Notes under the pieces: model-generated
Seen by the model: the letters and a program-made list of their open reading frames with translations, nothing else
Database searches by the model: none
Told to the model about the DNA's origin: nothing
From: Giesbergeria sp.
GTDB lineage: Bacteria; Pseudomonadota; Gammaproteobacteria; Burkholderiales; Burkholderiaceae_C
Direction: 5' to 3'
Assembly: GCA_017987055.1 (NCBI GenBank)
Contig: JAGNUJ010000085.1
Span: 1 to 6,660 of the forward strand
Length of the DNA: 6,660 bases
In this document: piece by piece, positions 661-2,190 of the stretch
How positions within the stretch are numbered: position 1 is the stretch's first letter
How the letters are laid out: each line of letters begins with the position of its first letter
Position numbers and translations under genes: made by a program

Positions 661-2130
661 ATGACCTCAAACCTGCGCAATCGGCTGCTGCTGCTGTTGG
701 TGCTGCCGCTGTGCGCGCTGGTGCTGGTGGGCGCGTGGATGGATTGGCGCTCGGCGGCTGAGGCGGCCGCCCAACACGACCAGCGCCTGTCGCGCCTGCT
801 GCCGGTGCTGGCCGATTCGGTGCTGGCACCGCCGCAAGAAGGCGAAGAGCCGCTGCTGCTTTTGGCTCCTATGGTCAGCGAATTTTTGCGCCACAAAGGC
901 GGCCATGCCACGTACACCGGCTACAGCGTACAAGACGGCAATGGGCGCCTGTTGCTGGGCGATGCTTGGGTTGCTGGCGCACTGCCCAGCACGTATGCCC
1001 CCGAATTTTTGAGCAAAGAAGTCGGTGGTATCGCCTACCGAATCGCTGTGCAGCGCATCTATGCTGGCCCTGTCATGGGCGAGTTGATCGTAGCGCTCGC
1101 CGATGGCTCTGACCCACGCCAGCAATGGGTGCAGCAACTGCTGTGGCGGGTGCTGCTGCCCAATTTGATATTGGTGGCTGGCGCGGCGCTGGCGATTCAC
1201 TGGGCGGTGCGCCGCGCCTTCAAGCCGCTGCTGGCGCTGGCCGAGATGGTCGAGCACCGCTCGCCGCGCGACCTGAGCGCGATTGACGAGAGCGCTTCGC
1301 CGCAAGAAGTGCGCCCGTTGGTGCGTTCGCTGAACCGCTTGTTTGCGCTGGTCAACGCGCAGGCCGAGAGCCAGCGCCGCTTTGTCGCCGACGCTGCCCA
1401 CCAGTTGCGCACGCCGCTGGCCGGCCTGCAAGCGCAAGTTGAAGCCTGGGCGCTGATGGCGCGCGCTGCTGCCCAGCCCGCCGCTGCCGACACAGAATAC
1501 AAGCCAAATCAGCCTCTAGCCAAACAAACACGTGCGCCAGCAGCTATTACTTTAGGAGTCGATGAGATTGAAAAACTGCGCGCCGCCACGCGCCGTACCT
1601 CGCAGCTGGCGCACCAGCTGCTGGCGCTGTCACGCGCCGATGCGCGCAGCCTGCAAGCGCAGTCGCCCGAGCGCGTCGATTTGCAAGACTTGTGCGAAAT
1701 TTTGCTAGAGCAGTTTCTCGATGCCGCCACGGCCAAAAGTATCGACTTGGGGTTGGAAGCTGCGCCCGCCCACGTCAGCGGCCACGGCTGGCTGCTGCGC
1801 GAGTTGCTGTCGAACTTGATCGATAACGCCATCCAATACACCCCGCCGGGCGCCAGCGTGACGATTCGCTGCGGCCAGCAAGGCGAAGGCACGGGGCCGG
1901 TCTTTTTGCAGGTCGAAGATAACGGTCCTGGCGTGCCGGTGGCCGAACAAACACAGGTGCTGCAGCGCTTTTATCGCCTACCCAGCAGCGGCGGCGAAGG
2001 CACCGGCTTGGGGCTGGCGATTGCCGATGAAATCGCCCGCGCGCACGGCGCGGTGTTGGTGCTGGGCAGTCCTGATCAAGGCAGCGGCCTGCGCGTGACG
2101 GTGGTGTTTATCGACAATGTGATTGGCTGA
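661..2130 (+). CDS. TctE/QseC-like membrane sensor histidine kinase with an internal insertion
   Basis: Inner-membrane sensor kinase, 489 residues, partner of the preceding regulator. TM1 is about residues 8-26. The periplasmic domain (about 27-160) resembles the 2CSK_N domain of TctE-type kinases (DGNGRLLLGD, then an LP segment). TM2 is about 164-183, followed by a HAMP-like linker to about 235. The DHp motif FVADAAHQLRTPL places the phosphorylated His at 247. The ATPase domain has an N box (ELLSNLIDNA, 381-390), G1 (EDNGPGVP, 419-426), FYRL (437-440) and G2 (GTGLGLAI, 447-454), so all catalytic motifs are intact. The ATG at 661 is the only in-frame start after the regulator's stop; no good Shine-Dalgarno site is visible, which suggests translational coupling. 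The spacing from His247 to LLALSR is about 27 residues longer than I expect for the family, and most of the excess is encoded by a short DNA repeat. The ligand is unknown. Confidence 0.95.
   Translation: MTSNLRNRLLLLLVLPLCALVLVGAWMDWRSAAEAAAQHDQRLSRLLPVLADSVLAPPQEGEEPLLLLAPMVSEFLRHKGGHATYTGYSVQDGNGRLLLGDAWVAGALPSTYAPEFLSKEVGGIAYRIAVQRIYAGPVMGELIVALADGSDPRQQWVQQLLWRVLLPNLILVAGAALAIHWAVRRAFKPLLALAEMVEHRSPRDLSAIDESASPQEVRPLVRSLNRLFALVNAQAESQRRFVADAAHQLRTPLAGLQAQVEAWALMARAAAQPAAADTEYKPNQPLAKQTRAPAAITLGVDEIEKLRAATRRTSQLAHQLLALSRADARSLQAQSPERVDLQDLCEILLEQFLDAATAKSIDLGLEAAPAHVSGHGWLLRELLSNLIDNAIQYTPPGASVTIRCGQQGEGTGPVFLQVEDNGPGVPVAEQTQVLQRFYRLPSSGGEGTGLGLAIADEIARAHGAVLVLGSPDQGSGLRVTVVFIDNVIG
1501..1554 (+). 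repeat. Short dispersed repeat, copy A, inside the kinase gene
   Basis: This segment matches the reverse complement of 2137-2190 at 45 of 54 positions without gaps (hand count), including the identical run cagcctctagc. It is visibly more AT-rich than the coding DNA around it. The two arms, agcctctagc and gccagcagct, form a degenerate inverted repeat. It is read in frame from kinase residue 281 (KPNQPLAKQT...) to about residue 298. At the position where copy B has the stop codon TAA, this copy has CAA, so the kinase frame stays open. Confidence 0.8.
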
Positions 2131-2136
2131 TTTGAA

Positions 2137-2190
2137 TAAATTGATAGCTGCTAGCGCAGGTATTTATTGGGCTAGAGGCTGTTTTTGCTT
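2137..2190 (-). repeat. Short dispersed repeat, copy B, between convergent genes
   Basis: This is the reverse-orientation partner of the copy at 1501-1554. It begins just after the kinase stop codon and runs into the 3' end of the deacetylase gene. Read on the minus strand it encodes the last eight deacetylase residues (KQKQPLAQ) and the stop codon TAA. Its inverted-repeat arms are better preserved than those of copy A. The pattern resembles a small palindromic intergenic repeat that I recall as common in Comamonadaceae genomes; that family assignment is from memory and untested. Confidence 0.8.
2146..2186 (+). terminator. Probable intrinsic terminator of the two-component operon
   Basis: The arms at 2146-2155 (agctgctagc) and 2171-2180 (gctagaggct) can form nine base pairs, one a G-U wobble, with a single G-A mismatch, around a 15-nt AT-rich loop. 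A run of five T follows at 2182-2186. The hairpin begins 16 bp after the kinase stop. It is part of repeat copy B and overlaps the end of the deacetylase gene. On the minus strand the tract after the stem is only moderately T-rich, so termination of the opposing operon here is less certain. Confidence 0.5.

Follow-up and report, generated by a model that had tools for sequence, protein, structure and literature searches.

In-frame palindromic repeats have so far mostly been described as insertions and are best known from Rickettsia, where the Rickettsia palindromic elements (RPE), specific to this genus and 105-146 bp long, are described as lying in frame in conserved protein genes (PMC2229807). 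GTAG- and CGTC-tagged REPs are short high-copy palindromes that are often located at gene ends, where they supply stop codons, and some are reported inside ORFs, including those of repair genes (PMC3733652); in the main text of that paper, Acidovorax, Comamonas, Delftia and Variovorax have 0 occurrences. The BRE described for Betaproteobacteria, including Comamonadaceae, are dispersed and often in tandem, up to ~90 bp long, with a mean GC content of 69% in Bordetella and at most 29 copies per genome, some of them in coding sequences (PMC3110155). Coding palindromes are also described for the mitochondria of Nematomorpha as long perfect inverted repeats (PMC6649704).

A palindromic repeat in the coding sequence of a TctE-like kinase

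The DNA stretch studied here (the window) is one 6,660-base contig (C24) of a 1.68-Mb, 61% complete genome (G000). Named relatives of its kinase include Simplicispira, Giesbergeria and Acidovorax, and judged by these names the host of the repeat is an Acidovorax-group bacterium. The window starts with the end of a gene for a TctD-like response regulator (1-642, + strand, 5' end cut by the window), the probable partner of the TctE-like sensor histidine kinase of 489 aa encoded at 661-2130 (+ strand); further genes encode YdjC-like and GtrA-like proteins, a glycosyltransferase, and mannosyltransferase-like and thioesterase-like proteins. The kinase was assigned by the names of the sources of its homologues and by its 2CSK_N, HisKA and HATPase_c domains, all over the Pfam cut-offs, with the HisKA alignment confined to residues 238-263. 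Its putative phospho-acceptor His247 (codon 1399-1401, + strand) is suggested by the motif AAHQLRTP, which is invariant across the 37 proteins compared. An AlphaFold2 model of the protein was weak (mean pLDDT 61); it contains helices at residues 215-271 and 300-333, with pLDDT below 50 for residues 272-296, and predicts a loop between DHp helices 1 and 2 at residues 272-299 (1474-1557, + strand). When this weak model was used in Foldseek, the matches listed were histidine-kinase-type structures, as expected.

The first-pass annotation of this DNA had proposed that a dispersed palindromic repeat was turned into protein in the DHp hairpin loop, and its description of the locus proved largely accurate. 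When 1501-1554 is compared with the reverse complement of 2137-2190, 45 of 54 positions are identical; in 200 base-shuffled windows no ungapped match exceeded 29/54, and no inverted repeat longer than this pair (55 nt, 84%) is listed for the window. Base 1501 opens codon 281 and base 1554 closes codon 298 (KPNQPLAKQTRAPAAITL), and in the weak AlphaFold2 model the repeat indeed sits in frame in the predicted hairpin loop. The extent of 1501-1554 is real, yet somewhat short, as alignment to the family consensus gave a copy of ~1496-1559 (- strand, antisense to the consensus direction). The distance from His247 to LLALSR is 73 residues, compared to 43-51 in nine diverged kinases (of the twelve used, L027-L038, the script did not place L029, L032 and L034), and against these nine the claimed excess of ~27 residues is real. 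The 33-nt core of the copy (1512-1544, - strand) consists of two 11-nt arms and an 11-nt centre of a derived subfamily, with 20/22 arm positions matched and 8/11 arm pairs. The copy agrees with the present consensus at 45/53 bases and was recognized by an own-genome repeat profile trained without it with 35.0 bits (E 6.8e-10, over 55 kinase genes).

The second copy (2137-2190, + strand; 50/53 to the consensus) lies between and at the ends of the convergent kinase and YdjC-like genes and is a strong predicted hairpin (z -3.6). The YdjC-like gene ends within it: positions 2164-2190 (- strand) provide the residues KQKQPLAQ and the stop codon (...FKQKQPLAQ*), in the same frame as in the kinase. 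As RNA, the kinase copy is not folded more stably than shuffled sequences (z +1.8, coding strand), and the idea of an RNA hairpin function in the kinase mRNA was dropped as unsupported by this value. The GC content of the two copies is 41-46%.

The repeat family and its copies inside genes

The core of the family is GCTGCTNGCGC-11 nt-GSGCTANAGGC, that is, two 11-nt arms around an 11-nt centre, in an element of ~45-65 bp; the consensus was built from 46 copies in 40 fetched stretches, the kinase copy being one of the 46. When G000 was searched with the intergenic copy, 40 of the 250 first-look candidates were scored and all 40 matched. With iterated profiles, 61 copies were found in the 241 kb of G000 that were sampled, confirming that the kinase stretch belongs to a dispersed palindromic repeat; the samples from relatives had 35 copies in 180 kb (G006), 36 in 104 kb (G009) and 2 in 17 kb (G011), and G004 gave 86 matches in 400 kb, some counted on both strands. 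The non-overlapping copies amount to 188 in 920,654 sampled bases (G000, 61; G006, 34; G004, 62; G009, 31). Of 250 genomes of the window's family, 38 contained the arm pattern, searched with a gap of 6 to 20, and it was absent from all 24 genomes of other families (control with the pattern reversed: 4 matches). Among the matches listed it is 33 bases long, which corresponds to a gap of 11. A literature search, whose coverage many subscription papers lie outside, found no description of this repeat family or of in-gene rewriting.

A gene for a protein like the REP tyrosine transposases (RAYT; 73-79 bits in the four proteins scanned, below the NCBIfam cut-off of 80) occurs in 46 of 60 relatives and also in those that lack a pattern match, namely G002, G005 and G008; none was found in the incomplete G000. 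A repeat copy stands at the 3' end of this gene, in the same orientation, in five of the eight readable loci (L333, L334, L337, L338 and L347; two of the matches are weak). Since the gene occurs in nearly all family members searched, even in those without the repeat pattern, RAYT as a proven mobiliser was dropped.

The copies are not confined to intergenic DNA: 44 of the 188 lie in predicted genes, in sequence that is 88-91% coding, so that genes are avoided but often entered. The genes were called by a simple codon-usage script, which is crude, and copies near predicted N termini may precede the true starts. All 30 host proteins scanned (of 42; mostly those with higher repeat scores) belong to Pfam families, among them MutL, MoeA, DnaX, MurD, AroE, FolP, Fmt and CobU as well as PepN-like, TrpF, Cca, SelO, GlmU and AnmK. 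Other genes with in-frame copies (e.g. those for MoeA, MutL, Fmt and FolP) were thus found on search, and the comparison with the Rickettsia RPE made in the first-pass annotation is apt. Thirty-three of the 44 in-gene copies use two of the six codon phases; this bias was rejected as a sign of selection, since stops are frequent in the remaining frames of the copies and selection is unneeded. In the AnmK of G009 (L252:862-1977), in-frame copies are predicted twice, at residues 28-48 and at 274-293, yet the protein matches its Pfam profile over almost the whole length.

Comparison with orthologues revealed different situations at different sites. MoeA has ~29 extra residues in nine rows of the genus, which are absent in 15 rows of other families or paralogues (four of these 15 have a few extra residues). 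In MutL the copy lies in a variable linker in the same frame as in the kinase (NQPLA...AQAAI) and was undetectable in G002 and G005, both genomes without a pattern match. The G000 MutL frame (L267:11238-12755) stops at 506 aa, most open frames of its orthologues being ~650 aa; truncation, frameshift or assembly error are all possible for it. FolP (L277:19360-19998) and Fmt (L281:2357-3328) contain repeat-like DNA over native, length-conserved coding sequence, with no insertion: their length is the same as in G002, G005 and G008, with two extra residues in one FolP row. In G010 (L353, L375), which has no exact pattern match, Fmt still contains a segment resembling the repeat (25.1 bits) and MutL a faint one (9.1 bits), which suggests that the repeat family has decayed and that relics persist in genes.

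Age and subfamily of the kinase copy

A close orthologue of the kinase was found in 16 of 25 same-genus genomes (9/25 were without one) and in G028, which belongs to another genus. All 17 have the long loop, with 67-73 residues from His to LLALSR and exactly 73 in 12 of them, as do the 120 best protein matches listed (the first being the window's own protein), down to the end of that list at ~66% identity. The lineage-specific insertion implied by the first-pass annotation is at odds with this distribution, and the loop is not recent. Among 37 wider-family orthologues, 25 have at least 60 residues and 11 have at most 56, and L174 lacks the motif as searched. Repeat similarity in the loop (E<=1e-3, best of four repeat profiles, over 55 genes) was detected in 14 of the 17 close orthologues (all but L018, L020 and L023) and in 5 of the 37 wider ones; the matches in the orthologues are antisense and at the same place as in the window kinase. 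A search with the loop peptide returned the 10 kinases plus 17 low-scoring extras. The first-pass annotation had counted the same loop outside the repeat family as evidence against its reading, and this was found in part: G028 and G072 have the long loop without an exact pattern match, the G072 loop (L148) being still repeat-like (E 3.7e-4) and the G028 loop (L018) no longer (E 0.9). Loop-bearing and loop-less kinases are interspersed in the wider-family tree, so that one insertion with losses is indistinguishable from several insertions at one site. Among the 25 long-loop orthologues of the wider family, L179 and L180 have very long loops (104 and 155 residues) without repeat similarity, which shows that the loop tolerates large inserts. 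In the seven orthologues compared, the identity to the window was 14-55% in the loop (residues 268-293) versus 70-88% in the flanks; by this comparison, the kinase loop is a fast-evolving segment.

To assign the copies to subfamilies, we used log-odds scores from position-specific models of 13 centre columns (G000 versus G004), built from copies outside predicted genes only. Such copies have a median score of +20.8 in G000 (n = 40; 95% above zero) and of -23.7 in G004 (n = 34), and are mixed in G006 (n = 21; 62% above zero) and G009 (n = 19; 32%). The kinase copy of the window scores +26.5, whereas the close orthologues are below zero in 17/17 cases, with a safe count of 15/15 (the core is not truly located in L023 and L024, and several others match the arms at only 14-16/22). 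Its nearest orthologues score -26.9 (G009), -22.4 (G011) and -32.8 (G006), and of the seven wider-family loops tabled only L176 is positive (+1.9). The profiles agree: the window copy reaches 35.0 bits with its own-genome profile versus 17.5 with the G004 profile, and for the copies of G009, G011 and G006 another profile fits better than that of G000 (the training set of the G009 profile included G009's kinase contig). Judged from sequence, the window's kinase copy is thus of a newer repeat type than the copies of its relatives, a type with the centre ACGTRTTTRTT. The window, G009 and G006 agree in the loop length of 73, the frame is unchanged, and so are the conserved residues around the loop compared to the orthologues. 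Since length and frame are unchanged, the kinase copy was probably overwritten.

In a tree calculated without the loop, the window protein forms a clade with P0002-P0007 (support 0.993), nested in a larger group without RA at the loop end. Six of the seven clade proteins, compared as protein only for P0002-P0007, end the loop with ...RA(P/L)xAI, as the new repeat type would encode; P0005 has SPALAAI. The loops of P0008 and P0022 are identical to that of the window, at an overall identity of 86% and 77%, respectively. P0008 is on a separate long branch of the loop-free tree and looks chimeric, and P0022 was left out of the tree; both are probably chimeric or frameshifted metagenome proteins.

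The other sites were compared in the same way. MutL shows a switch like that of the kinase, with +20.4 in G000 versus -18 to -40 in G009, G006, G003 and G004 (-40.3 in G004). Fmt scores +18.8 in G000 and -27.6 in G004, and that of G006 shares the new type (+17.7). FolP scores +15.2 in G000 and -23.5 in G004, but also +5.4 in G009 and +5.8 in G011, values similar to that of an unrelated repeat-free FolP (G036, +5.6). With positive FolP scores in G009 and G011 and the new type in the Fmt of G006, these two are weaker support sites. Of three profiles, that of the own genome fitted the Fmt copies of G000, G004 and G009 best (36.4, 40.9 and 40.2 bits); the training of the G000 bit-score profile had included its own Fmt, MutL, FolP and MoeA copies, unlike that of the log-odds models. 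Altogether, for 19 in-gene copies at five sites in four genomes the own-genome model was best in 12 (p 0.0002), and none of 20,000 label shuffles reached the summed own-genome excess. All sites but the kinase, four of five, had been picked because their G000 copy scored well, which biases the G000 part; with G000 left out, the own-genome model was best in 9 of 14 (p 0.0098), with p 0.014 for the excess (rounded scores). Because the G004 type looks ancestral, the own-genome fit of G004 can be plain inheritance.

Origin of the in-gene copies and comparison with known repeats

The kinase stretch is a member of the repeat family, its position, frame and orientation are shared with orthologues, and its subfamily differs from theirs. 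As a fairly probable explanation, we propose an old entry of the repeat into the DHp loop and a later overwriting by the genome's current subfamily in the window's lineage. The repeat would have entered before the Acidovorax-Simplicispira-Giesbergeria group diversified, the shared loop deriving from this one old insertion; later, a different copy free of stops would have replaced it through gene conversion (or through excision and re-insertion), with frame and length preserved. Replacement at constant length is what one would expect from gene conversion between short repeats or from short-patch illegitimate recombination; our literature search found no short-patch event of such a kind. In-gene copies would survive where their frame is stop-free, and the loop is probably a tolerated flexible linker between two helices rather than a selected function. 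Of the 40 G000 copies sampled outside genes, only one is free of stops in the kinase frame across the core, so that a random donor would usually bring a stop, and this scarcity of stop-free donors weighs against conversion. The donor would then have been one of the rarer stop-free copies (one is visible in the alignment of copies, L086), or only part of the core would have been copied. The MoeA copy of G000, not updated to the new type (-2.3), also speaks against the overwriting picture. The broader proposal that a homogenising process of the dispersed repeat also rewrites in-gene copies (kinase, MutL and perhaps Fmt and FolP) to the current subfamily, overlaying native FolP and Fmt coding sequence at unchanged length, is in our judgement possible but not quite probable.

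The same centre change could also result from loss of the old loop and insertion of a fresh copy at the same site, that is, from re-insertion instead of conversion. This would explain why the centre changed all at once, and many genomic copies could serve as donors; nevertheless, it is unlikely, given that the window, G009 and G006 have loops of equal length and that the conserved residues on either side have not changed. The rarity of frame-open donors counts against it too, and equally against conversion of the whole core. The similarity of the window copy to the present consensus and its derived centre would also fit the recent arrival of a mobile repeat in a DHp loop that until then was short in this species. 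This is contradicted by the loop at the same place in all 17 close orthologues and its repeat similarity in 14, and would require the exact deletion of the old loop beforehand, making it very unlikely. 

The repeat-like segments of FolP and Fmt, which do not differ in length from repeat-free relatives, would instead be expected if the motif were a functional site at the DNA level (e.g. for a nucleoid protein, or a terminator) built and maintained by selection, also inside genes. The mean arm pairing is alike in and outside genes in three of the four genomes (it is lower inside genes in G006, n = 3, and in G004). Yet the kinase and MoeA copies are length additions, the MutL copy lies in a variable linker, the kinase copy as RNA folds no better than shuffles, and several orthologous copies have decayed; we regard such a site as quite unlikely. 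Beyond the shortness of the element, nothing speaks for a chance similarity or a spurious frame in a GC-rich genome, which is hardly conceivable in view of the 45/54 match against a maximum of 29 in shuffled windows, the profile E value and the kinase domains on both sides of the repeat.

The family is large, almost a quarter of the sampled copies lie in (crudely) predicted genes, many of them for core enzymes by Pfam, and its orthologous in-gene copies can be compared across species, allowing a direct test of ongoing rewriting, its route and its effects on proteins. A functioning protein may thus be open to repeated rewriting by a DNA sequence that spreads in the genome; if this is true, conversion driven by repeats would continually supply clustered amino-acid changes across an entire bacterial family.

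Like the RPE, the present element is a dispersed palindromic repeat that lies in frame in conserved genes and is tolerated there; unlike them, it is only ~45-65 bp long, is found in Betaproteobacteria of the Acidovorax group, and within genes tends to match the subfamily of the genome that carries it. With the GTAG/CGTC REPs it shares the small size, the high copy number, the location at gene ends and the supply of stop codons, as well as an occurrence in a repair gene, here that for MutL; by eye, no GTAG or CGTC tag was seen at the ends of the consensus. The BRE are likewise dispersed betaproteobacterial repeats with some copies in coding sequences, but the present element differs from them in its length (~60 bp), in the lower GC content of the two window copies and in its abundance (188 copies in 920,654 bases of four genomes). 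The Nematomorpha palindromes are also inverted repeats inside protein-coding genes, but they are mitochondrial and do not form a dispersed bacterial family. To summarize, in-frame repeats were already known from RPE and REPs, and what appears new here is the tendency of the in-gene copies to follow the subfamily of their own genome.
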